Shown here in pieces: positions 17,002 to 27,791 of a DNA stretch of 50,102 bases. Both the position numbers and the translations under genes were made by a program. The notes beneath the pieces were generated by a model, which made no database searches, had not been told where the DNA came from, and worked only from the letters and a program-made list of their open reading frames with translations. Location: the NCBI GenBank assembly GCA_003155915.1, contig PMFA01000016.1, positions 108,833 to 158,934 of the forward strand, read 5' to 3'. Position 1 is the first letter of the stretch; each line of letters opens with the position of its first letter. Origin of the DNA: Acidimicrobiaceae bacterium (lineage in GTDB: Bacteria; Actinomycetota; Acidimicrobiia; Acidimicrobiales; RAAP-2).

Positions 17002-17460
17002 GTGGACTACACCGTTCGACCTATCGCCTACATCCGCAACGAGCGCAGTGAGGCCCTCGACGATAACTGGGATGAGATCGTCAGCACGGTCGAGCTCGCC
17101 CAGGACGTGCCCGAAGAGGCCCTTCGGGGACTGGAGGAGTTCTCGCACGTGGAGATCGTCTTCTTCGCCGACTGGGCCGAGGACGTGCCGCCGGGACCGT
17201 GGCATCGACACCCGCGCGGCAACGCACAGTGGCCGGACATCGGTGTCTTTGCCCAACGCAACAAGGACCGTCCGAATCGCCTGTTGCTCTCGACCGTCGA
17301 GATCGATGAACTCTCGGAGCGCTCGTTCACCGTGCGCGGGCTTGACGGCATCGACGGGACGCCGGTACTGGACATCAAGCCCGTTTTTCGCTGGAGCGTG
17401 CCGAAGGGTGAACTGCGCGTGGCACCGTGGAGCGAAGAGCTCGGCGAGAACTACTTCTAG
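17002..17460 (+). CDS. trmO: tRNA (adenine-N6)-methyltransferase TrmO family
   Basis: A 152-residue member of the TrmO/YaeB/VirR family, which uses S-adenosylmethionine to methylate t6A37 in threonine tRNAs. The hallmark GVFAQRNKDRPNRLLLSTVE (about residues 81-100) forms the beta-barrel SAM site, and GTPVLDIKPVF follows. It lacks the C-terminal extension of E. coli TrmO, as many short bacterial and archaeal homologues do, so its activity could differ. GTG at 17002 is preceded by TAGATT at 16990-16995 with six nt between, the leaderless pattern. It overlaps the haloalkane dehalogenase gene tail-to-tail by 4 nt. Confidence 0.88.
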   Translation: MDYTVRPIAYIRNERSEALDDNWDEIVSTVELAQDVPEEALRGLEEFSHVEIVFFADWAEDVPPGPWHRHPRGNAQWPDIGVFAQRNKDRPNRLLLSTVEIDELSERSFTVRGLDGIDGTPVLDIKPVFRWSVPKGELRVAPWSEELGENYF

Positions 17461-18365
17461 TTCGCCGCAATAAATCCGTTCAGTACTCGAGCCAACTCCG
17501 GGCCGTTCTCTTCTTGCAAGAAATGGGCGCTGCCCGCAATGGTCGTGTGCGCCTGACCTCGCGATCCGGGAACCTCGCGGAGGAACTTCGCGTCAGCTCC
17601 TCGGGTGATCGCGTCGCCACTGAAGCAACAGAGAAACGGCTTCGTGAAGTTTGCCAGTACGGCCCACGCGGCGACGTTGGCGTCGTGGGCGGGGTCCTCG
17701 GGTGACGTGGGCACCAGCGTCGGGAACTGTCGGGCGCCCTCTTTGTAGGACTCGTCGGGGAACGGCGCGTCGTAGGCCGCGATCACCTCGGCGCTGAGAC
17801 GCTCGCCACAGCCTCCCGAGACGATGTTGCCGATGTGCAGTTCGGGCGTCGTCTGACTGAAGTCCTGCCAGGCCTTGAAGGCCTCGCTCATCCGCTCCTC
17901 GCCCGTCGGCAGTCCCCCGTTGCCGATCGCCACCCGCGCGAATCGCTCCGGATGCTCCCCCACCAGGCGCAGCCCGATCAGGCTGCCCCAGTCCTGGGCG
18001 AAGAGCGTGACGTCGTGCAGTTCCAACTGGTCGAAGAGCAGTTCGCGGACCCACCCGACGTGTCGCGCGTAGGTGTACTCCTTACGCTCACTCGGCTTGT
18101 CGGACCGACCGAAACCGATGAGGTCGGGAGCCACGACGCGATGTCCGGCCTCGACGAGACCGCGAATCATGAAGCGGTACAGGTACGACCACGAAGGTTC
18201 ACCGTGCAACAGCACCACGGTTTGGCCATCGCGCGGTCCCTCGTCCAGATAGGCCATTCGAAGCGCTTCGCCACCACTCGGATCGGCGACGTCCGCGTAG
18301 TGCGGGGCGAAATCGAAACTGCTGAGTCCCTCGAAGTTCTCGTCGGGTGTGCGTAGTCGTTCCAT
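17457..18365 (-). CDS. Haloalkane dehalogenase (alpha/beta hydrolase)
   Basis: A 302-residue alpha/beta hydrolase close to subfamily I haloalkane dehalogenases (DhlA/DhmA type). The nucleophile is Asp125 in LFAQDWGSLIG, with the first halide-binding Trp126 adjacent; Trp166 in the cap is the likely second halide ligand. The oxyanion region is HGEPSWSYLYRF. The acid is Asp251 (FSGDAITRG) after strand 7 and the base His281 (GSAHFLQEE). All catalytic elements are present, so carbon-halogen hydrolysis is likely, although an epoxide or ester hydrolase role cannot be ruled out. It begins 4 nt after the arylsulfatase stop and should be co-transcribed with it. Confidence 0.88.
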   Translation of the reverse strand: MERLRTPDENFEGLSSFDFAPHYADVADPSGGEALRMAYLDEGPRDGQTVVLLHGEPSWSYLYRFMIRGLVEAGHRVVAPDLIGFGRSDKPSERKEYTYARHVGWVRELLFDQLELHDVTLFAQDWGSLIGLRLVGEHPERFARVAIGNGGLPTGEERMSEAFKAWQDFSQTTPELHIGNIVSGGCGERLSAEVIAAYDAPFPDESYKEGARQFPTLVPTSPEDPAHDANVAAWAVLANFTKPFLCCFSGDAITRGADAKFLREVPGSRGQAHTTIAGSAHFLQEENGPELARVLNGFIAAN

Positions 18366-18369
18366 GGTT

Positions 18370-20625
18370 CTATTGCCGGGCCATTCCCTCGCGGGCCGCC
18401 GCCGCCTTCTCGTCGTGGCTGTCCGGAGAGATCAGTTGGATGTCCACCCGCTCGATCCGCCCCTCGAAAGCGAAGTCGTCGACGTAGCGCTTGGAGACGG
18501 GCGAGCCGTGATCGCGACCGATGCCCATGGCGATCGTGGAGAAGATCCTCATCACGAACGGGAGATGGAGCGAACCGGCGTCCCGACCGTCGATCGTCAA
18601 AGTGACATCGGCGTCGCGGCGAGCTCGGCGAAAACGCACGCCGAGCACCGAAGGTCCGTCGGGAATCTCCTGCGTGGATTCCAACACGTGGTGTTCCATG
18701 AAGACGTTGTAGTCGAAGACCAACCGGTTGTCCTGCACGAACAGAGCGACGCCGGCGTTCTCGGTGCCCATGGCGAGAATGACGCCGCCGCGATCGCGTG
18801 CACGATCGACGCGCGCCTCCAAATCCCAGCTCCGTCCCCCGATCCCGGCGGCGGCCGACGGCGGGATCGGATTGAGCGGCGGTAAATAGGTGTAGTGACG
18901 AGACGTCGGATGCGGCGAGTAGTCATGCGACCTTGATGCGAAGAGCACCAGACCGCGATCGTCCAAGGGCAGCACGCCGTACTCCTCAGCTTCGCGCCAC
19001 CAGAGATCGATCAACTCTTTGAGTTTCTCCGGGTTGGTCGCGGCCAGGTCTCGGCACTCCGAGGGATCCTCGGCGACGTGATAGAGCTCCCAGCGATCGT
19101 CGTCGAAGGACACGCCGAAGACGTGTCGCGTGACGGCTTTCCAGCCTTCGTGGTACATCGCGCGGTGCCCACCCATCTCGAAGTACTGCGTCGTCTTTCG
19201 ACTCGGTTCATCGGGCCGGTCAAAGGCGTAGGCCAGGGACACGCCGGCCATCGGCATCTGTTCGAGGCCGCGGTGGGACTCCGGCATCGTGACGCCCGCC
19301 GCCTCGAAGACGGTCGGTGCGATGTCGGTCACGTAGTGGAACTGGTCTCTCACTTCGCCGCGCGCGGCGATGCCCTTCGGCCAGTGGACGACGAGCGGTA
19401 CGTGCACGCCGCCTTCGTGCGTGTTCTGCTTGTACCACTTGAAGGGCGTGTTCCCCGCTTGGGCCCAACCCCAGGGATAGTTCGAGTGACTGCTCGGTCC
19501 CCCGATGTCGTCGAGGTGCTGCACGGCCTCCTCGGGACTTTCCATGACCATGTTGAAGTACTTCATCTCGTGCAACACGCCGAAGGGACCGCCCTCTTGG
19601 CTCGCGCCGTTGTCGCTCATCAAGAGGATCAAGGTGTTGTCGAGTTCGCCAATGGTCTTCAGATCCGCGACGAGCCGACCGATCTGGGCGTCGGTGTGCT
19701 CGAGGAACGCGGCGTAGGCCTCTTGCAGTCGGGCGGCGAGCTTCTTCTGGACCTCGGGCAGTTCGTCCCACGGCTCGACGCCGTCGTTACGCGGAGCGAG
19801 CTCGGTGAACTCCGGGACGATACCCAACTCCTTTTGTCGCGCGAACCATTTGGTCCGAGCAACGTCCCAGCCCTCGTCATAGCGGCCGCGGTGACGCTCG
19901 AGGTACTCACCGGGCGCCTGGTGGGGCGCGTGCGTCGCGCCGAAGGCGAGGTAGGTGAAGAAGGGACGGTCGGGTCGAACTGATTTCGCGTCGTGGATGA
20001 AGCCGATCGCGTGGTCGACGAGGTCCTCGCTGAGGTGGTAACCGTCGGCCACGCTCTTTGGTCGCTCGACGCGGTGATTGTCGTACGTGAGGTCCGGTGC
20101 GAACTGATCGGTCTCGCCGTCGAGGAATCCGTAGTAGCGATCGAACCCCCGCTGCAGCGGCCACTGGTCGAACGGACCGGCCGAGGACGAGTTCTCCATC
20201 GACACGAGATGCCACTTGCCCACCGCGAACGTGGTGTACCCGTACTCGCGCAAGACTTCGGCCATTGTCGCCGCGTGGTTCGAGATCTGTCCACGCATGC
20301 TGGGAAAGCCGGTGCTCCAGTTCGACAGCCCCCGCATACCGACGCTGTGATGATTCCTTCCGGTCAGCAGTGCCGCCCGCGTCGGCGAGCACAGCGGCGT
20401 GACGTGGAAGTTCGAGAACCGAAGCCCGTTCGCGGCCAGTTCGTCGATGTTGGGCGTGACCAGGTCCGAGCCGAAACAGTTGAAGTGAGAGAACCCGAGG
20501 TCGTCAATGAGAATCACCAAAATGTTGGGGGCGTCGTCGTGGGGATGGCTCGGCGTCGGCCACCATGGCGCCGACTCCGCGACCGTGTCACCGATCGTTC
20601 CCTCAAAGTGTTCGTACTGCTTCAC
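18370..20625 (-). CDS. Arylsulfatase (formylglycine-dependent)
   Basis: A 751-residue type I sulfatase that hydrolyses sulfate esters. The formylglycine motif CSPTRAALLTGR places the modified residue at Cys79, the metal-binding pair is Asp41-Asp42 (LIDDLGFSHFNCFG), and later active-site elements are VGKWHL, FGATHAPHQAP and LMSDNGAS. The last ~180 residues, after the sulfatase core, form an extra beta-rich domain. No signal peptide is seen, so it is probably cytoplasmic and needs a formylglycine-generating enzyme or anaerobic maturase encoded elsewhere. GTG at 20625 has AAAGGGGGG six to seven nt upstream. It is the first gene of a two-gene unit with the dehalogenase. Confidence 0.93.
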   Translation of the reverse strand: MKQYEHFEGTIGDTVAESAPWWPTPSHPHDDAPNILVILIDDLGFSHFNCFGSDLVTPNIDELAANGLRFSNFHVTPLCSPTRAALLTGRNHHSVGMRGLSNWSTGFPSMRGQISNHAATMAEVLREYGYTTFAVGKWHLVSMENSSSAGPFDQWPLQRGFDRYYGFLDGETDQFAPDLTYDNHRVERPKSVADGYHLSEDLVDHAIGFIHDAKSVRPDRPFFTYLAFGATHAPHQAPGEYLERHRGRYDEGWDVARTKWFARQKELGIVPEFTELAPRNDGVEPWDELPEVQKKLAARLQEAYAAFLEHTDAQIGRLVADLKTIGELDNTLILLMSDNGASQEGGPFGVLHEMKYFNMVMESPEEAVQHLDDIGGPSSHSNYPWGWAQAGNTPFKWYKQNTHEGGVHVPLVVHWPKGIAARGEVRDQFHYVTDIAPTVFEAAGVTMPESHRGLEQMPMAGVSLAYAFDRPDEPSRKTTQYFEMGGHRAMYHEGWKAVTRHVFGVSFDDDRWELYHVAEDPSECRDLAATNPEKLKELIDLWWREAEEYGVLPLDDRGLVLFASRSHDYSPHPTSRHYTYLPPLNPIPPSAAAGIGGRSWDLEARVDRARDRGGVILAMGTENAGVALFVQDNRLVFDYNVFMEHHVLESTQEIPDGPSVLGVRFRRARRDADVTLTIDGRDAGSLHLPFVMRIFSTIAMGIGRDHGSPVSKRYVDDFAFEGRIERVDIQLISPDSHDEKAAAAREGMARQ

Positions 20626-20673: not shown

Positions 20674-21606
20674 TTACGGCGAGTGCTGGATCATGCTCGA
20701 GATAACGTCGCGCTCGGGACACGACGCTGGCCCGAGGACTGAGATCGCCATCGCCGCCGCCGCGTTCCCTCGTCGGGCCGATTCGATGACGGCCGTGCCG
20801 AGGGCCAACTCGGCGAGAAAGACACCGGAGTGCGTGTCGCCCGCGCCGTTGGTATCGACGACGGTGACCTCGAAGCTGTACACGGGTACGGGTTCTTCGC
20901 CCTTCATCAGCACCGTGCAACCGCTCGCGCCGTGACGCACGACGACTCCGGTTCGACCGGTCCGTTGCGCGAGTGTCGCCACAGAATCATCCAACGATTC
21001 CTCACCCGTCAGTAGAGAAGCCTCGGACTCGTTGCAGAGGGTCCAATCGGCGCGCTCAAGAACGCGCACCAGGTTCTCTTGGGGAATATCCATCACTCGA
21101 TTGCTGGGATCGAAGGCGACCACGACGTCCTCGCTCAGCGTCGCCAACCACTCGAGAGCGACTTCCGCGGAACCGGGATACATCACGTTGTAACCGGACA
21201 GCAACACGTAGTCACCACTCCGTACATCGAGCGACAACAGGTCTGAGTATCGAAGTGATCCTTCGGCGCCCGGAGACGTGATGAACGTCCGCTCCCCCTC
21301 GTCATCGATCATCGCCACGCAGAATCCGGCGTCGCGAGTCTCGTCAGCGTCAACGGGCTCGCCCACGTTGTCCTGCTCCAGGGACGACCTCGCGATCGAA
21401 GAAAAGGGACCGCGACCGAGGCGTCCCGCGTAGATAGCCGAGACGCCCTGTCGGGCGGCAGCGCTCATGGCGTTGTAGCCTCCGCCAGTCGTAATCAGAT
21501 GCTCCGTCGCGAGGACGTCGGCGCCGCTTTTCGGGAGTTCTGCGATGCGCAGCACGATATCGATCATGACCGAGTCGAGACAGAAGAGACGCGCCGATGC
21601 ACTCAC
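20674..21606 (-). CDS. PfkB-family carbohydrate/nucleoside kinase
   Basis: A 310-residue ribokinase-fold kinase. The N-terminal substrate segment has TTGGGYNAMSAAARQG, and the C-terminal PfkB signature VVDTNGAGDTHSGVFLAELA carries the catalytic Asp (second D of GAGD). A central lid strand precedes GRLGRGPFSSIAR. The substrate may be a sugar, sugar phosphate or nucleoside; sequence alone does not tell. GTG at 21606 is supported by TAGGGT six nt upstream (leaderless) or by AGGGTGA read as a ribosome binding site. It is divergent from the NCS1 permease across about 120 nt and resembles the second PfkB at 24382, suggesting a shared substrate class. Confidence 0.88.
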   Translation of the reverse strand: MSASARLFCLDSVMIDIVLRIAELPKSGADVLATEHLITTGGGYNAMSAAARQGVSAIYAGRLGRGPFSSIARSSLEQDNVGEPVDADETRDAGFCVAMIDDEGERTFITSPGAEGSLRYSDLLSLDVRSGDYVLLSGYNVMYPGSAEVALEWLATLSEDVVVAFDPSNRVMDIPQENLVRVLERADWTLCNESEASLLTGEESLDDSVATLAQRTGRTGVVVRHGASGCTVLMKGEEPVPVYSFEVTVVDTNGAGDTHSGVFLAELALGTAVIESARRGNAAAAMAISVLGPASCPERDVISSMIQHSP

Positions 21607-21725
21607 GCGTTCACCCTAATGAGTGTCGTGGTCGCCATCGAAGGTATGTGAATCATTTGCTTACTTCGACACGCGCGGCCCGCCTACAATCGACGAAAGC
21701 CACGCGACGTCGAGAAAGAGGTGCG

Positions 21726-23213
21726 GTGAGCGAAATCTCCGAAGTACTCGGTACCGGTAGCGCCGGTGCGTTACGAATTGAAGAGAACGGCATCAATGTC
21801 ATCTCCGAAGCCGAACGTAAGGGCCAGCCCCGGGAGCTCTTCTGGCCCTGGTTCGGGGCCAACGTGTCAGTCCTCGGACTCAGTTACGGCGCGTACATCT
21901 TGGGTTTTGGCATCTCGTTCTGGCAGGGGCTGATCGTCGGACTCATCGGCATCATCATCAGTTTCGTACTGTGTGGCATCATCGCAACCGCTGGGAAGCG
22001 GGGCTCGGCTCCGACGATGGTGCTCAGTCGCGCCGCCTACGGTGTGCGGGGAAATCGTCTTCCGTCGTTCATCTCCTGGCTGCTCTGCGTTGGGTGGGAG
22101 ACCGTGCTCACCGTCATCGCCGTGCTCGCGACCTCGACGGTCTTCACGAGGCTTGGTTGGGGCGGCGGCAACGGAGTCAAGGCCGTGGCCATGGTCGTCA
22201 TCGCGGCGTTGATCATCGTCGGCGGCGTCATGGGTTTCGATCTGATCATGCGGATGCAGGCGGTCATCACCGTGATCACCGGAGTCCTCACGGTCATGTT
22301 CATCATCCTCACGTTCAAGCACGTGCACTGGCACGTCGTGTCGCAACTGCACAGCGGGACCACACAAAGCCTCATCGGCGCACTGGTCTTCGTGATGACG
22401 GGTTTCGGCCTTGGATGGGTCAACGCGGCGGCCGACTATTCGCGTTACCTGCCACGCAAGGCGTCGACGAGCGGCGTTGTCTGGTGGACGACCTTCGGAT
22501 CTTCGATCGCGCCCGTCATCCTCGTGTTCTTCGGTCTCCTTTTGGCCGGTTCGTCGTCGCAACTCAGTTCGGCAATTGGCAACGACCCCGTCGGGGCGTT
22601 AGCCAGGTTGCTGCCGACCTGGTTCCTCGTGCCCTTCGTCATCGTGGCCGTCCTCGGACTCGTCGGTGGTGCGGTGCTCGACATCTACTCCTCGGGCCTC
22701 TCGCTGCTTTCGGCGGGCCTCAAGATTCCGCGCTACGCCGCGGCCGGTGTCGACGGCGTGGTGATGGTCATCGGGACCATTTACATCGTGTTCTTCGCGC
22801 ACAATTTTCTCCCCCAGTTCGAAGGGTTCCTAATCACGGTCGGGGTACTGATCGCCGCGTGGTGTGGCGTGTTCCTCGGTGACATGGCGCTACGCAAGAA
22901 GGACTATTCCGACGCCGACCTCTTTCGCAACTCTGGGCGCTACGGCGACGTGCGACTCATCCCGGTGCTCACCACGATCGTCACGAGCGTGATCGGTTGG
23001 GGCCTCGTGACGAACACCGGCGCGTCGTGGCTGACGTGGCAGGGCTACTTGCTCGGACCAATCCACCTCGGCGGGAAAACCGGGAACTGGGCCTACGCGA
23101 ACCTCGGCGTGTTCGCCGCGCTGGTGCTGAGTTTCCTCGTCACCGTTGCCTTCACGAGCGATTCGGTTCGCCGACAAGAAGAGGCCGCTCCGGCGCCGTT
23201 ACCCGTCTCGTAA
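21726..23213 (+). CDS. NCS1-family nucleobase/purine-cytosine permease
   Basis: A 495-residue membrane transporter with twelve predicted helices, of the nucleobase:cation symporter-1 family (purine/cytosine permease branch). Typical segments are VLSRAAYGVRGNRLPSFISW after helix 2 and the loop GWVNAAADYSRYLPRKAST, a hallmark of this branch. Known substrates in the family include cytosine, purines, allantoin, hydantoins, thiamine and some nucleosides. GTG at 21726 follows AAGAGGTG, a good ribosome binding site; the open frame upstream to 21597 reads through a low-quality region. The neighbours, two PfkB kinases and an ADP-ribosylglycohydrolase, suggest that a nucleoside or ribosylated compound could be the substrate. 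Confidence 0.9.
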   Translation: MSEISEVLGTGSAGALRIEENGINVISEAERKGQPRELFWPWFGANVSVLGLSYGAYILGFGISFWQGLIVGLIGIIISFVLCGIIATAGKRGSAPTMVLSRAAYGVRGNRLPSFISWLLCVGWETVLTVIAVLATSTVFTRLGWGGGNGVKAVAMVVIAALIIVGGVMGFDLIMRMQAVITVITGVLTVMFIILTFKHVHWHVVSQLHSGTTQSLIGALVFVMTGFGLGWVNAAADYSRYLPRKASTSGVVWWTTFGSSIAPVILVFFGLLLAGSSSQLSSAIGNDPVGALARLLPTWFLVPFVIVAVLGLVGGAVLDIYSSGLSLLSAGLKIPRYAAAGVDGVVMVIGTIYIVFFAHNFLPQFEGFLITVGVLIAAWCGVFLGDMALRKKDYSDADLFRNSGRYGDVRLIPVLTTIVTSVIGWGLVTNTGASWLTWQGYLLGPIHLGGKTGNWAYANLGVFAALVLSFLVTVAFTSDSVRRQEEAAPAPLPVS

Positions 23214-23377
23214 GGCACTCGCTGCTCCAGGTCGGAAGACGGCGAAATCAATCGTGACGAGGACGATCCGGCCGGCGGCGACGGACTTGGGTCCGATGAG
23301 AATCCAATCTGTCAATGCGACCCAGGTCCCCAAAATCACTGCGTAGACTTGAGGCGGTTGGGTTCAGAGGAGTTGCA

Positions 23378-24409
23378 TTGCGCATCGGTGTTCTTACGGC
23401 GGGTGGCGACGCGCCCGGCCTCAACGCGGCCATCCGGGCCATCGGCCAAATGGCCCTGCGCGACGGACACGAAGTCATCGGCATCGCCAACGGCTGGGCC
23501 GGACTGGCCAGCGAATACGCCGGTCGTCCCCTCCTCGCGAGCGACCTCCAGGGCGTCATCGCCCAGGGCGGAACGCTGCTCGGCACCGCGCGCTACAACC
23601 TCGACAGCCCGACGGGCGGTCGCGAACGGGTGCTGGCCGCCATCGATGAGCATCTCGATGCGTTGATCTCCATTGGCGGCGACGGTACGCACCGAATTTC
23701 GACGTGGCTGGCCGATCACGGGGCGCCCATCGTCGGCGTGCCCAAGACCCTCGACAACGACCTGCTCGGCACCGACTACTGCATCGGCTTTGACACCGCG
23801 ATCAGCATCGTGTGTGAATCGATCGACCGGCTCTACACGACGGCGGCGTCGCATCACCGCGTCATGGTCGTCGAGACGATGGGACGCCTGACCGGCTGGG
23901 TCGCCGCGATGGGCGGACTCGCCGGCGGTGCGGACATGATCGTGATTCCCGAATTCCCGGTAACGATGGACGACATCATGCGCCACCTCGGACGCCGGGT
24001 GGACGCCGGTTTGGCGTTCTCGATCGTCGTCGTCGCCGAAGGCGTGAACCTCTCGACGCTCGGTGGTACCGAGAAGGGTGAACTCTCGACCGAAGGTGTC
24101 GGAGGCGTGCGCCTGGCGACGCGGGGCGTCGGACAGTTCGTCGCGTCCAAGATTGAAGAGCTCACGGATATTGAAGTGCGCACCACGGTCCTCGGTCACT
24201 TGCAGCGCGGCGGCAGCCCGACCGCGCACGACCGTATCTGGGCGACGCGCGTCGGGGCCGGCGCCTACGACGCGGTCACCGCGGGCAAGTTCGGGACAAT
24301 CCCGGTCGTGCGCGACAACACCGTGGTGCTCAGTCCCCTCTCATCGGTGATCGGCGGCCAGCGCCAGGTGCCGCGCGAGATCTACGAGCTCTGCTCGGTC
24401 TTCTTCTGA
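23378..24409 (+). CDS. pfkA: 6-Phosphofructokinase, group III (ATP-type residues)
   Basis: A 343-residue phosphofructokinase converting fructose 6-phosphate to fructose 1,6-bisphosphate, the committed glycolytic step. Motifs are LTAGGDAPGLNAAIRA, GGDGTHRIS and PKTLDNDLLGTDYCIGFDTA. The Gly after the GGD Asp together with Lys in PKTLDND is the combination of ATP-dependent group III enzymes such as those of Streptomyces; pyrophosphate-dependent ones have Asp in place of that Gly. TTG at 23378 is chosen because AGGAG lies 6-7 nt upstream and it starts the conserved LRIGVLTAGG. It is downstream of the permease, and overlaps the second PfkB gene tail-to-tail by 28 nt. Confidence 0.93.
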   Translation: MRIGVLTAGGDAPGLNAAIRAIGQMALRDGHEVIGIANGWAGLASEYAGRPLLASDLQGVIAQGGTLLGTARYNLDSPTGGRERVLAAIDEHLDALISIGGDGTHRISTWLADHGAPIVGVPKTLDNDLLGTDYCIGFDTAISIVCESIDRLYTTAASHHRVMVVETMGRLTGWVAAMGGLAGGADMIVIPEFPVTMDDIMRHLGRRVDAGLAFSIVVVAEGVNLSTLGGTEKGELSTEGVGGVRLATRGVGQFVASKIEELTDIEVRTTVLGHLQRGGSPTAHDRIWATRVGAGAYDAVTAGKFGTIPVVRDNTVVLSPLSSVIGGQRQVPREIYELCSVFF

Positions 24410-25326
24410 TCCAAGAACTCTTCGAGTTCTTGCCTCGTCGGACCGGTGGCCGGACCGCGTTTCGTAACTGACATCGCCGCGGCCGCGTTGGCCCAGCGAG
24501 CCGCACCCAAAGACGAGCGACCCTCGGCCAACGCGGCCGCGAACGCTCCCAGATGACAGTCCCCCGCGCCATTCGTGTCGACACTCTCGACGGCGAATCC
24601 CGCCACCGCAATGCTGTGACGTTCCGATTGTGCGACAACGCAGCCCTCAGCACCCACGCGAACGATGGCACCGCCGCGATTCATCCGAGCGCGAAGGAGA
24701 CGTGCGGATTCCGAGGAGTTGGAAGCGTCCGTGAGCAAGAACGCCTCGCGCTGGTTACACGAGAACCAGTCGACGCGTTCGAAGACCGCGTCCAACATGG
24801 ATTCGGAAATCTCGTTCACGATCGGGCCGGGGTCGAAGAGAAAGTTCGTCGCGCCGGGGATCTGTGTGAGGAACTTGAGCAGCGCGCGGGCGTTGCTCTC
24901 GTGCAAGAGCGCGTAGCCGGAGAAGTAGACGAGATCGCTCTCGCTCACGTCGAGTTCGTCGAGTTGGCCCGTCGAGAGCGTCGCTTCGGCGCCGACACTC
25001 GTGAGGAACGTCCGCTCGCCGCCGTCTTCGACGATGGCCACGACGAACCCGGTGTCGACGTCGTCAATCGGTGGCGTCGCGACGACGATGTCTTCGAGAC
25101 GCATCGCCTCCTGGGCGATTGTCGCGAACGGTCCGAGTCCGACGACCCCGCCGTACACCGAGGCCAGTCCGAGTCGAGAGGCGGCGGCCATGACGTTGAA
25201 ACCTCCCCCGGCGAAGGAGTCACTGCGCTCAACCAACGTGTCCGAACCACGTTCGGGGAGCAGTTCGACGTTCAAGACGACGTCGACGACGACACTATCG
25301 ACGAGGATCAGGCGTGGCGCGCTCAC
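24382..25326 (-). CDS. PfkB-family kinase, second copy
   Basis: A 314-residue ribokinase-fold kinase paralogous to that at 20674. The substrate region is SFAGGGFNVMAAASRLGLAS and the signature is SVDTNGAGDCHLGAFAAAL with the catalytic Asp in GAGD. The same N-terminal LVDSVVVDVVLNV pattern (LDSVMIDIVLRI in the other copy) points to a common ancestor and probably similar but not identical substrates. GTG at 25326 overlaps the preceding ADP-ribosylglycohydrolase stop by 4 nt (GTGA), so the two are translationally coupled; the longer frame to 25449 is rejected. The hydrolase-then-kinase order fits release and phosphorylation of a ribosyl moiety, as an inference. Confidence 0.88.
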   Translation of the reverse strand: MSAPRLILVDSVVVDVVLNVELLPERGSDTLVERSDSFAGGGFNVMAAASRLGLASVYGGVVGLGPFATIAQEAMRLEDIVVATPPIDDVDTGFVVAIVEDGGERTFLTSVGAEATLSTGQLDELDVSESDLVYFSGYALLHESNARALLKFLTQIPGATNFLFDPGPIVNEISESMLDAVFERVDWFSCNQREAFLLTDASNSSESARLLRARMNRGGAIVRVGAEGCVVAQSERHSIAVAGFAVESVDTNGAGDCHLGAFAAALAEGRSSLGAARWANAAAAMSVTKRGPATGPTRQELEEFLDQKKTEQSS

Positions 25327-26339
25327 GCCGCGCTTTGCTCGGGACCGTTTCGCAGTTGCAACAGGCGTCGCGCCATGTCGTCGAGTTCGAGTTCGTTCAC
25401 TCGCGCTACCGTCTCTCGCGCGGCGAGCGGAAAGACGTTCAGTCCGCACCGCGATCCCACGATCGCTCCCGTCATCGCCGCGATCGTGTCGCTGTCACCG
25501 CCGAGTGACGCCGCCACTCGACACGCCAACCACGGCTCGTCGCTGAAGGCGCTCGCCACGGCGAAGGCCGCCGGCACCGACTCCCACGTCGCCAGGCTGG
25601 TGCCGACCAGAATCGGCAACAGGTCCACGACACCCTCGGCGTCGAGTCCGCGGACGAGATCGATCGCCCACCGGATTCGCACCGCGACGTCCGCACCGGC
25701 GATCCAGTGACCGCGTCGTGACCCCCGAACCGCCGCGTCGCAGGCGGTGTCGATCATCACCTCGAAGGTGAGACCCTCGACGCCGGCACTCACGGCCCCG
25801 GCGACCGCCGCGGCACCGGCGAGCGCCACGCTCGTGTTGTGCGTCAATCGACTCGCCAGGGCCACGCGCGTGACGAGCTCGTCGAGGTCCAGGGACCGAA
25901 CCGCGATCGCGACCGGTGTGATGCGCATCGCCGCACCGTTGGTGTCGCCCCGACGACCAACCTCTTCGGGATCGCCCCCCGCCAGGAGGGCGTTGATGGC
26001 GCGCTTGGTCGACGGTCCGAGAAGGTCGAGCGACCCCTTGGCCTTCATCGACTCTTCCCACGCGATGAGCGCGTCGGCCCAACTTTGAATGTCGACTTCG
26101 CCGTGTCCGTCGATTAGTTCGCTGGCTAACAACACGGCCTGCTCAGTGTCGTCGGTGATTCGTCCGGCGGTCATGCCCTCGGCGATCGGATGATCGGTCG
26201 GCGCCGGCTCGAAGTCGACCAGGACCTTCCCGAAGACGCTCACGACCTCTTCGCGCGACATCATCTGCGTCGGCATTCCGAGCGCGTCTCCGATGGCGAG
26301 GCCGTAGAGGGCGCCCGCGGCCCGGTCGAACTGCGTCAC
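25323..26339 (-). CDS. ADP-ribosylglycohydrolase family protein
   Basis: A 338-residue all-helical protein of the ADP-ribosylglycohydrolase (ARH/DraG) family, which hydrolyses N- or O-linked ribosyl bonds using two Mg ions. The first metal motif is GRITDDTEQAVLLAS, the middle contains RGDTNGAAMRITP, and the C-terminal motif is LGGDSDTIAAMTGAIVGS; all metal-binding acidic residues are in place. Substrates in the wider family include ADP-ribosyl-proteins, ADP-ribose derivatives and, in some gene-cluster contexts, nucleosides. GTG at 26339 is preferred, with GAGGGGG eight nt upstream; GTG at 26348 is the alternative. It forms a two-gene unit with the downstream PfkB kinase. Confidence 0.9.
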   Translation of the reverse strand: MTQFDRAAGALYGLAIGDALGMPTQMMSREEVVSVFGKVLVDFEPAPTDHPIAEGMTAGRITDDTEQAVLLASELIDGHGEVDIQSWADALIAWEESMKAKGSLDLLGPSTKRAINALLAGGDPEEVGRRGDTNGAAMRITPVAIAVRSLDLDELVTRVALASRLTHNTSVALAGAAAVAGAVSAGVEGLTFEVMIDTACDAAVRGSRRGHWIAGADVAVRIRWAIDLVRGLDAEGVVDLLPILVGTSLATWESVPAAFAVASAFSDEPWLACRVAASLGGDSDTIAAMTGAIVGSRCGLNVFPLAARETVARVNELELDDMARRLLQLRNGPEQSAA

Positions 26340-26480
26340 TGGCTCCACCCCCTCAGCCTACGAAAGCGCGCCCGTGATTACTTACCATTGCCGGGCGCGG
26401 CGTCGAGCAAATCGTCTGCCGTAAGGTGGGCTTCGCATGGAAACGCCGCCGCCCAGTCGCGTCTCGATCGAGACCTACTC

Positions 26481-27791
26481 GTGATCCCGATACTTTCCGC
26501 GACCCAGATGCGCGGGGCCGACGCGCTCGCCGTGCGGGCCCACGGGAGCGACGCCCTGGTCGCCGCGGCCGGGACCGCCGTCGGTCTCGAAGCCCAGTCG
26601 ATCCTCGGCTCGTGCTACGGATCGCGCGTGGCGGTGCTCGTCGGACCGGGCCTCAACGGGGCCGACGGACGCGTCGCGGCCGCGTGGTTGCGTTCTCGCG
26701 GCGCCAAGGTCGACGTCATCGAAACCACGAGCCAACCAAAGGACTTACGGGGTTTCGCGCTCGTGATCGACGCGGCCTTCGGGCTCGGTTGCTCGCGTCC
26801 CTACCAAGCGCCGCGCGTACTAGGCGACGCGGTAGTCCTCGCGGTCGATCTGCCATCGGGCGTCGACGCCGATTCCGGTGCGGTACTCGGTTCTCCGATG
26901 CCGGCTGACGTGACGATGGCCCTCGGCGCGTTGAAGCGAGCTCACGTCACCGGTGTGGCGGCCGCTTTCTGCGGTCAGTTGCGCTTCGCCGGCATGGGTA
27001 TCGTCCAGCACTTCGATGACGGCCTCGTGGAAGACCGCGACCTCGGCACTCTGATCCAACGCGAGCCGGGCGACCACAAATGGACCCACGCGATTCAGGT
27101 GTTCGCCGGATCGACTTTGATGCCCGGCGCGGCCGACCTCGTCGTGCGCGGCGCGTTGGCGGCCGGCGCGTCGATGATCCGGCTCTCGAGTCGGGGCGAC
27201 GTCGCGGAGTTGGTCGACCTCCCGGCCGAAGTCGTGCGCAGCGAGGACTCGAAATTCGAGAAGCGCAGTCGCTGCGTCGTGGCGGGCCCGGGCGTCGGCA
27301 CCGACGGCGTTGACTGGTTGGGCGAGCGGTTGATCGACGTGTCGGTACCAGTCGTGCTCGACGCCGACGGACTGAATCGATCCCTGATTCGCTCGGAGAC
27401 CCCGGACGAACAACGATGGTTGCTCACGCCCCACGAGGGTGAGTTCGCGCGACTGACCGGGGAACCACTTCCGGCCGATCGCCTGGAGGCGGTGCGCTCA
27501 TTCGCGCGCGCCACCAACTGCGTCGTACTGCTGAAGGGTCCGACGACGATAATTGCCGACCGCGACGGTCGAGTGCGCGTCGTGCGATCGGGCACGCCCA
27601 CGCTCGCCACGGCCGGCAGCGGTGACGTTCTTTCCGGGGTGATCGGTGCCACGATCGCCCGGGGCCACGATCCGTTCGAGGCCGCCGCGCTCGGTGCCCA
27701 CCTGCACGGACGCGCCGGCGCGGCGCTGCCGGTCTACGCCAGTGCCTCGGATATTCCGACGGCCGTCAGCGACGTCATCGCCGCGCTCTGA
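26481..27791 (+). CDS. nnr: Bifunctional NAD(P)H-hydrate epimerase / ADP-dependent dehydratase
   Basis: A 436-residue metabolite-repair enzyme. The N-terminal ~190 residues are the YjeF epimerase domain (VGPGLNGADGRVAAAWLRSRG, then VDLPSGVDADSG); the C-terminal part is the ribokinase-like dehydratase (LTPHEGEFARLTG, GSGDVLSGVIGATIARGHDP). It restores hydrated NADH/NADPH to the normal cofactor. It is shorter than E. coli YjeF (515 residues), mainly in the first domain, where the usual NNGGDG reads LNGADG. GTG at 26481 begins VIPILSATQM, the usual family start; no strong ribosome binding site is visible. The upstream open frame to 26190 is antisense to the ADP-ribosylglycohydrolase and is not used. 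Confidence 0.9.
   Translation: MIPILSATQMRGADALAVRAHGSDALVAAAGTAVGLEAQSILGSCYGSRVAVLVGPGLNGADGRVAAAWLRSRGAKVDVIETTSQPKDLRGFALVIDAAFGLGCSRPYQAPRVLGDAVVLAVDLPSGVDADSGAVLGSPMPADVTMALGALKRAHVTGVAAAFCGQLRFAGMGIVQHFDDGLVEDRDLGTLIQREPGDHKWTHAIQVFAGSTLMPGAADLVVRGALAAGASMIRLSSRGDVAELVDLPAEVVRSEDSKFEKRSRCVVAGPGVGTDGVDWLGERLIDVSVPVVLDADGLNRSLIRSETPDEQRWLLTPHEGEFARLTGEPLPADRLEAVRSFARATNCVVLLKGPTTIIADRDGRVRVVRSGTPTLATAGSGDVLSGVIGATIARGHDPFEAAALGAHLHGRAGAALPVYASASDIPTAVSDVIAAL

Follow-up and report, generated by a model that had tools for sequence, protein, structure and literature searches.

What might a bacterium do with an importer, an ADP-ribosylglycohydrolase-fold hydrolase, two PfkB-family kinases and a 6-phosphofructokinase encoded side by side, as they are in the 50,102-nucleotide stretch of Acidimicrobiaceae DNA analyzed here (the window), and which of the five genes belong together? 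All five open reading frames lie where the preliminary description had placed them, and each scores above its Pfam gathering cut-off. The ribokinase-superfamily kinase PfkB1 (20674 to 21606, minus strand; PF00294, 155.6 bits) is divergent from an NCS1-family importer (21726 to 23213, plus strand; PF02133, 127.6 bits against a gathering score of 23.5), and the spacing of about 120 nt noted earlier for this pair is 119 nt (21607 to 21725) between the PfkB1 start codon at 21606 and the likely GTG start of NCS1 at 21726; the longest NCS1 reading frame begins with an ATG at 21597 and would overlap PfkB1. An ATP-type 6-phosphofructokinase, PFK, follows (23315 to 24409, plus strand; 316.3 bits with the PFK Pfam model), and its end overlaps by 28 nt, tail-to-tail as had been described, the end at 24382 of a second-lineage kinase, PfkB2 (24382 to 25326, minus strand; PF00294, 139.9 bits). 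PfkB2 is in turn coupled to a YegU-type ADP-ribosylglycohydrolase-fold hydrolase, ARH (25323 to 26348, minus strand; PF03747, 190.2 bits against 26.2), the two genes overlapping by 4 nt (25323 to 25326) between the stop codon of ARH and the GTG with which PfkB2 starts, again as reported; ARH starts at 26348 or at an in-frame GTG at 26339, the latter implied by the end given before. The five genes are real and under purifying selection, with dN/dS of 0.05 to 0.23 for all five against four related loci (L034, L035, L038, and L039) and of 0.16 to 0.23 for PfkB1 against the same four. No sigma-70-like promoter was found between 20500 and 26500, the PfkB1/NCS1 spacer included, and nothing in the window matches Rfam at gathering score; 11 cassette loci yielded just two Rfam matches, an sRNA and a TPP riboswitch, and these lie beyond yegTUV in the E. 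coli region. In a comparison of two divergent spacers for a shared operator, no word of at least 9 bases turned up in both.

With its two kinases, the locus is an unusual form of a bacterial importer/ARH/kinase cassette that is widespread and of which E. coli yegTUV is an example. The yegTUVW genes likewise encode an importer, an ARH and a PfkB kinase, likewise with a 4-nt ARH/PfkB overlap, and the window has the same adjacent, same-strand arrangement of ARH and a YegV-type PfkB; E. coli YegV and YegU are 30% and 33% identical to PfkB2 and ARH, respectively. The E. coli system differs in having an NHS importer, one kinase and a GntR regulator, where the window has NCS1 in place of a YegT-type (NHS) importer and two kinases, and the E. 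coli-type and window-type sequences of both kinase and ARH are separated by branches with full support. Another comparable system, known from annotation, is the GntR-ARH-NCS1-PfkB operon found in Pseudomonas and in Burkholderiales, whose genes in Paraburkholderia carry the annotations GntR, ARH, cytosine permease and kinase. It combines the window's three functions, NCS1 included, but with an NCS1 of another group, one kinase, a GntR gene and no PFK nearby. The rus ribose locus of Bacteroides thetaiotaomicron, reportedly the subject of Glowacki et al. 2020, is described as encoding a transporter, two paralogous ribokinases, a nucleoside hydrolase and a member of the ARH family, along with outer-membrane uptake proteins; we liken it to the window by description, and none of the latter proteins was seen in the window locus. 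In agreement with the earlier remark that no described pathway is known with exactly this set of genes, no paper assigning a function to the importer/ARH/PfkB combination was found among the matches listed; the portion of PMC2217521 seen names both kinds of gene, only apart, and the excerpts of PMC11633122, on P. aeruginosa NCS1 substrates, mention neither ADP-ribosyl nor PfkB. An idea involving queuosine was set aside, with neither term mentioned in the excerpts of PMC11130926.

The linkage of the three cassette genes recurs far from the window. ARH (E ≤ 1e-50) occurs in 26 of 398 Pseudomonadota genomes, and all 25 loci fetched for these 26 matches have nearby a YegV-type PfkB and a GntR gene, together with an importer that is NCS1 in 6, YegT in 10 and ABC in 9; the use of NCS1 is thus shared by some Pseudomonadota cassettes. 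A scan centered on PfkB2, covering the best 80 of 284 relatives, found ARH in 69 of 74 other loci, 66 of them also with NCS1 and mostly from Pseudomonas. Two draft genomes carry in-frame fusions, of ARH with PfkB in L041 and of NCS1 with PfkB in L029. Among window-type Acidimicrobiaceae loci the order NNR-ARH-PfkB2-PFK is kept in 6/6, and no GntR gene lies within 5 kb of ARH in any of these six, the window itself standing outside that search. The co-localization that the first reading of the locus had offered as its own test is thus borne out for importer, ARH and PfkB, and these three form a functional unit. As searched, the ARH family extends beyond the cassette, because a YegV-type kinase lies within 5 kb in only 6/46 ARH loci of Bacillota (any PfkB match, 28/46) and 1/9 of Actinomycetota (any PfkB match, also 1/9); scoring in each phylum survey was limited to five candidates per genome, and the loci fetched represent 50 places in Bacillota and 17 matches in Actinomycetota. 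The importer appears to be the exchangeable part: a quick tree (32 rows from 99 hits) has NCS1 recruited from at least three separate groups across cassettes, and the window's NCS1 scores 86.1 with TIGR00800, below its cut-off of 353.1, and gave 0 hits at 0.001 in a PDB sequence search. Ten proteins from the Pseudomonadota neighborhoods offered no pathway hint.

The predicted structure of the hydrolase (pLDDT 93.8) has 1T5J, ARH3 and DraG as its nearest folds. Residues T65, D66 and D67 together with D285, D287 and T288 are invariant in alignments of 17 and 21 sequences, and these T/D/D and D.DT residues we take to be the two-metal site, which by this alignment is intact in the window enzyme. 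In trees, one of them built from 35 of 107 ARH rows, the window ARH is placed apart from the ARH of L042 and L026, but a single clade joining them is not rejected (AU p 0.353), and we therefore claim neither a separate, foreign origin of ARH nor a transfer of ARH with PfkB2.

The two kinases are related and non-identical, as first described, at 40% identity, and they represent old separate lineages: a single clade, as a recent duplication would give, is rejected (AU p 0.00029, lnL difference 74.1). The kinase tree used 53 of 85 rows, and the first kinase and ARH trees were built without most Pseudomonas loci and without rows below score and length limits. PfkB1 groups with kinases of L042, L026, L046, L066, L068, and L062, a lineage common among related Acidimicrobiaceae, and PfkB1-type kinases occur without ARH in the locus in L046, L062, L066, L068, and L028. 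The PfkB2 model (pLDDT 94.3) has the ribokinase fold and superimposes on 1rk2 with Z 37.1 and an rmsd of 2.1 over 296 aligned residues, and the GAGD catalytic motif (G253 to D256) is invariant in 15 kinase sequences. Ribokinases are the top folds by Z, but fructokinase, adenosine kinase and aminoimidazole riboside kinase follow within about 2 Z, so that the substrate cannot be read from the fold. When both window kinases and three other YegV-type kinases were aligned to E. coli RbsK, D16, G42, N46 and the catalytic D255 were kept in both window kinases, while N14, K43 and E143, which we take to be the ribose contacts of RbsK, were absent from both, the E143 column being less surely aligned.

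The position of PFK as an exit to glycolysis, proposed in the preliminary description, is not upheld. PFK is a synteny neighbor, probably a housekeeping gene outside the functional unit, because it is the PFK ordinarily found in the genus and, in G040 (locus L028), a genome with no ARH match, it likewise adjoins a PfkB1-type kinase. It scores 351.5 bits with NF002872 (cut-off 253), is 60 to 99% identical to 14 of 15 PFKs from genus members and related loci, and is 47% identical to the second PFK of its own genome. Of 12 further genomes of the genus that were searched, 10 have a PFK; in Pseudomonadota a PFK is near ARH in 0/25 loci.

We infer a catabolic role for the remaining genes, and lean, by a modest measure, toward a YegUV-type cassette for an unusual ribosyl or ribosyl-like compound that would be taken up, phosphorylated and cleaved at its glycosidic bond. 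An exchangeable importer, here NCS1, would bring the compound into the cell, a PfkB kinase would phosphorylate its sugar part, and the ARH-fold enzyme, presumably using Mg, would then cut the glycosidic bond to release the aglycone together with a pentose phosphate able to enter central metabolism. This order, kinase before hydrolase, is favored because ARH enzymes naturally bind ribose with a 5' phosphate and because the kinases are without the residues that RbsK uses for free ribose. It is also the order of the pseudouridine pathway PsuT-PsuK-PsuG, in which an importer and a PfkB-family nucleoside kinase are followed by a glycosidase acting on the 5'-phosphate. The logic of that pathway is as proposed for the window cassette, although PsuG is unrelated to ARH and the kinase for pseudouridine is related to PfkB2 only distantly (7vva; Z 33.3, 12% identity).

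The reverse order was the core of the preliminary description, in which an ordinary nucleoside is imported and hydrolyzed by ARH, the ribose is phosphorylated by ribokinase-like PfkB proteins, and PFK leads on to glycolysis. Ribokinase TIGR02152 is indeed the top-scoring model for the two kinases as well as the best fold, and the importer of some cassettes is of the nucleoside-symporter type (in E. coli, YegT with 612.8 bits for PF03825), YegT being named among three E. coli nucleoside transporters in the part of PMC9239236 seen; yet we consider this scheme unlikely, as the scores of 107.5 and 119.2 bits fall well short of the 299.65 that the ribokinase model requires, the ribose contacts are missing and PFK looks like a bystander. 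In the available portion of PMC11241209, moreover, transport of gemcitabine, uridine, cytidine and xanthosine by YegT was not detected, which speaks against the obvious pyrimidine nucleosides, and the excerpt of PMC11979927 reports that the uridine-binding residues of NupG are not conserved in YegT; to the extent that E. coli YegT is informative here, a common pyrimidine nucleoside would be an unlikely substrate. About equally improbable, if anything slightly more so, is a pyridine riboside, either that of nicotinamide or that of nicotinate, or the corresponding phosphate, with the niacin base freed for NAD salvage or degradation. An L. plantarum plasmid carries an NrtR-like gene (NrtR_WHD 41.7 bits; NrtR equivalog 49 bits, below the cut-off of 400), PncB (683.5 bits) and a PncA-like gene (51.3 bits, below the cut-off of 174) adjoining ARH-NCS1-PfkB; two Pantoea plasmids have the cassette beside genes annotated like, and presumably representing, a nicotinate-degradation (nic) cluster; and an NAD(P)HX repair gene adjoins ARH in 6/6 window-type loci. 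The L. plantarum arrangement, however, looks like plasmid shuffling, because the junction contains a 106-bp piece that matches plasmid DUF87 genes at 98% identity, and no operator common to the two sides was detected. Across the E. coli/plasmid loci PncB lies near ARH in 1/15 and NicC in 2/15 (both Pantoea). The ARH loci of the five remaining survey groups have neither gene nearby, and such neighbors are also absent from seven additional stretches akin to the L. plantarum cassette, two of which enlarge loci already counted. The NAD(P)HX repair gene also occurs near the PfkB1-type kinase of ARH-less L028, and the window's genome (completeness 95.65%) has no match to PF04095, the nicotinate/nicotinamide phosphoribosyltransferase family. 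Thus weakened by the plasmid scar, L028, the lack of PF04095 and the other survey groups, NAD or nicotinate salvage was rejected as the main reading. In L042 the neighbor of NCS1 that belongs to the isochorismatase family reaches 28.2 bits with the nicotinamidase model (cut-off 174).

Two further readings appear still less probable. A regulatory protein de-ADP-ribosylase of the DraG/ARH type with incidental neighbors would suit the fold and metal-site residues, which the window ARH has in common with DraG, ARH1 and ARH3, but we think it a poor prospect given the scores of 76.9 bits with the DraG equivalog model TIGR02662 (cut-off 337.05) and 65.2 bits with the Tri1 model (cut-off 490), and given the steady partnership with importer and kinase, fusion to the kinase included. 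A role in ADP-glucose and glycogen metabolism, as proposed for E. coli yegTUV and GgaR, seems if anything a shade more remote. In the part of PMC10819704 seen, GgaR (YegW) is the repressor of yegTUV, ADP-glucose reduces its complex with the yegT promoter region in gel shifts, loss of yegW gives more glycogen, and an earlier screen cited there found less glycogen upon loss of yegV; the same text states that no clear function is known for any yegTUV gene. The importer near ARH in most cassettes counted is, in addition, ill-suited to an internal sugar nucleotide, and the absence of GntR genes from the six window-type loci also argues against it.

ARH-fold enzymes are known for reversing ADP-ribosylation. 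More tentatively than for the catabolic cassette itself, and as a possibility on which we would not yet rely, the cassettes may represent a widespread, undescribed route in which an ARH-fold glycohydrolase acts on small-molecule ribosides (as 5'-phosphates) once a nucleoside kinase of the PfkB family has acted, while lineages freely exchange the importer. If so, one branch of the ADP-ribosylglycohydrolase superfamily would be metabolic, not regulatory, and yegTUV of E. coli K-12 would gain an assignable role. The same proposal has Acidimicrobiaceae adding a second, independent kinase, which may point to two substrates or two steps; among the ARH loci surveyed, only those of the window type have two YegV-type kinases nearby.

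The locus holds five genes between 20674 and 26348, in the order PfkB1, a ribokinase-superfamily kinase (20674-21606, minus strand), the NCS1 permease (21726-23213 from its likely start, plus), a phosphofructokinase (PFK; 23315-24409, plus), the second kinase PfkB2 (24382-25326, minus), and ARH, an ADP-ribosylglycohydrolase-fold hydrolase (25323-26348, minus), and the gene spacing and overlaps claimed in the preliminary description are borne out on the sequence. All five are conserved genes, since dN/dS against four related loci lies between 0.05 and 0.23, lowest for ARH and PFK and highest for the kinases. The window's genome comprises 2.52 Mb in 29 contigs. After PfkB1, also on the minus strand, lie a sulfatase (18370-20625) and a haloalkane-dehalogenase-like hydrolase (17457-18365; NF002043, 446.8 bits), with a TrmO-like ORF, named by eye, beyond them (17002-17460). 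A sulfatase cluster also directly follows the PfkB1-type kinases of loci L026, L034, L038, L042, and L068; three of these five also have a TrmO-cluster gene further on. Divergent from ARH is a YjeF-type bifunctional NAD(P)HX epimerase/dehydratase gene (about 26450-27791), an arrangement found as well in all six window-type loci; a relative of this repair gene also lies near the kinase of L028, a locus without ARH.

The importer, ARH, and PfkB kinase form a unit, or cassette, that extends beyond the window's locus. A PfkB2-centred scan of named genomes, in which the top matches were Acidimicrobiaceae MAGs, supplied the best 80 of 284 relatives as loci, mostly from Pseudomonas. Six of the 80 are window-type, each ordered NAD(P)HX repair gene, ARH, PfkB2, PFK, with NCS1 reached in five and PfkB1 too in four; among the other 74, ARH lies in the same locus in 69 and NCS1 as well in 66. 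Against the bias of a kinase-centred scan, whole genomes were searched with an ARH alignment (E<=1e-50), which matched 40 of 398 genomes in Bacillota, 26/398 in Pseudomonadota, and 17/396 in Actinomycetota. All 25 Pseudomonadota ARH loci fetched combine the kinase and a GntR gene with an importer, which is NCS1 in six, a YegT-type nucleoside symporter in 10, and an ABC system in nine, for which an SBP_bac_8-type protein was the sole binding protein scanned. The ARH family at large occurs in other settings, because a YegV-type kinase is present in just 6/46 Bacillota and 1/9 Actinomycetota ARH loci fetched; one such setting is an ECF-transporter operon with PfkB, aldolase, dehydrogenase, and FGGY kinase genes.

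The best-known cassette member is E. coli yegTUV, which encodes a putative transporter, an ARH, and a kinase. The available portion of one paper (PMC10819704) reports repression by the GntR-type regulator GgaR, states that none of the three genes has a clear function, and proposes a link to glycogen, with no enzyme assay in that portion. The locus is thus of a kind already met in the annotations of many genomes and known, though uncharacterized, from yegTUV, but it differs in having NCS1, two kinases, and, in the window-type loci, no GntR gene detected in the vicinity of ARH. Among the open-access papers listed by our searches, we found none assigning a function to the importer, ARH, and PfkB set.

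Judged by these loci, the cassette importer is exchangeable. A quick NCS1 tree without bootstrap separated window-type, Pseudomonas/Saccharopolyspora, and Lactobacillus-plasmid/Plesiomonas proteins, with two further proteins from the window's family set apart, and long branches lie between most of the groups. ARH and PfkB together therefore seem to make up the core, and the importer seems to have been recruited to it. In-frame fusions are a further sign of apparent functional linkage: ARH-PfkB forms one stop-to-stop ORF of 836 aa in a Pseudonocardiales MAG (L041:758-3265, single contig), and NCS1-PfkB one of 878 aa in a draft genome from the same family as the window (L029:1-2634), on a single contig that ends within the kinase.

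The two kinases fall in separate lineages. PfkB1 groups with kinases of L042, L026, L068, L066, L046, and L062 (bootstrap/SH-aLRT 99/97), and PfkB2 is placed, less firmly (84/64), near those of L040, L041, and L133. A single clade of PfkB1 and PfkB2 was rejected (AU p = 0.00029); monophyly of ARH was not (p = 0.353). Because in L042 and L026 a PfkB1-type kinase adjoins ARH, with NCS1 divergent, and is followed by sulfatase, alpha/beta hydrolase, and TrmO-family genes, the same families as downstream of the window's PfkB1, gene order suggests that NCS1|ARH-PfkB1 came first and that ARH in the window lineage is now paired with a different kinase.

PFK had been proposed as the exit to glycolysis, a role that found no support: the enzyme is typical of the genus and, in genome G040, which has no ARH match, is seen beside a PfkB1-type kinase (L028). 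Among 15 PFKs taken from members of the genus and from related loci, 14 are 60-99% identical to that of the window; the fifteenth (L226), a second copy in its genome, is 47% identical, as is the window genome's own second PFK. PFK is present in 10 of 12 other genus genomes searched, and in a separate set, ARH at the cut-off used was absent from G009, G028, G040, and G056. In L046, L066, L062, and L028, where no ARH was found, a PfkB1-type kinase lies near PFK with a thymidine-kinase-cluster gene in between (L066's copy was scanned), and a TrmO-cluster gene is present in three of the four. Between PFK and NCS1, L038 and L039 carry a gene for a phosphate transporter. On gene neighborhood, PFK is best described as a neighbor of the cassette.

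The predicted ARH model (pLDDT 93.8) best matches archaeal 1T5J (TM 0.80/0.90), followed by ARH3 and DraG; its metal-site residues are invariant in the alignment, and it scores far under the cut-offs of both the DraG and the Tri1 equivalog. The PfkB2 model (pLDDT 94.3) has a ribokinase fold, which does not name the substrate because the Z scores for ribokinase 1rk2 (37.1), fructokinase (36.4), adenosine kinase (35.5), and aminoimidazole riboside kinase (35.0) lie close together. YegV-type kinases keep D16, G42, N46, and D255 of E. coli RbsK, the last presumably catalytic, but not N14, K43, and E143 (the E143 column is less sure), which we take to be ribose contacts, and we read this pattern as room or preference for a sugar bearing an aglycone. 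One study detected no uptake of gemcitabine, uridine, cytidine, or xanthosine by E. coli YegT (PMC11241209), and NupG residues linked to uridine binding are not conserved in YegT (PMC11979927); contrary to this, PMC9239236 calls YegT a nucleoside transporter in passing. Given the uptake and residue results, the natural compound is probably not a common pyrimidine nucleoside, provided the cassettes have one substrate in common. The NCS1 importer leaves the compound class unfixed, since a metformin carrier of this family indicates that charged, non-nucleobase compounds can be taken up (PMC13390362). What the genomes establish is that importer, ARH-fold enzyme, and kinase genes are linked; the importer would take up the compound, the kinase would phosphorylate its ribosyl part, and ARH would cleave the glycosidic bond to release a pentose phosphate, the favored order being kinase before ARH.

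A role in niacin or pyridine riboside metabolism seems improbable. NrtR-like, PncB, and PncA-like genes precede ARH-NCS1-PfkB on a Lactobacillus plantarum plasmid (L125:3881-10250), and on two Pantoea plasmids (L124, L130) the cassette follows genes whose annotations resemble those of a nicotinate-degradation (nic) cluster; however, the L. plantarum junction gap holds a 106-bp remnant with 98% identity to plasmid DUF87 genes, and a search for a shared operator found none. PncB and NicC seeds were near no ARH in the other five locus groups, PF04095 had no match in the window's genome, and the NAD(P)HX repair gene accompanies the L028 kinase even where ARH is missing.

Other ARH neighborhoods were also seen. 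L152, L155, L157, L158, and related Bacillota loci conserve the order sugar-binding (DeoR/LsrR-like) regulator, ECF transporter, PfkB, ARH, DeoC/LacD-family aldolase, zinc dehydrogenase, FGGY kinase, MFS, which may be a pathway of its own for a sugar or riboside, as yet undescribed. In Enterococcus raffinosus (L129:5069-7978) an ARH-family gene lies immediately behind a beta-glucoside PTS gene and no PfkB turned up close by; in Actinomycetota loci L202-L206 ARH genes with no YegV-type kinase nearby have several neighbor clusters in common.
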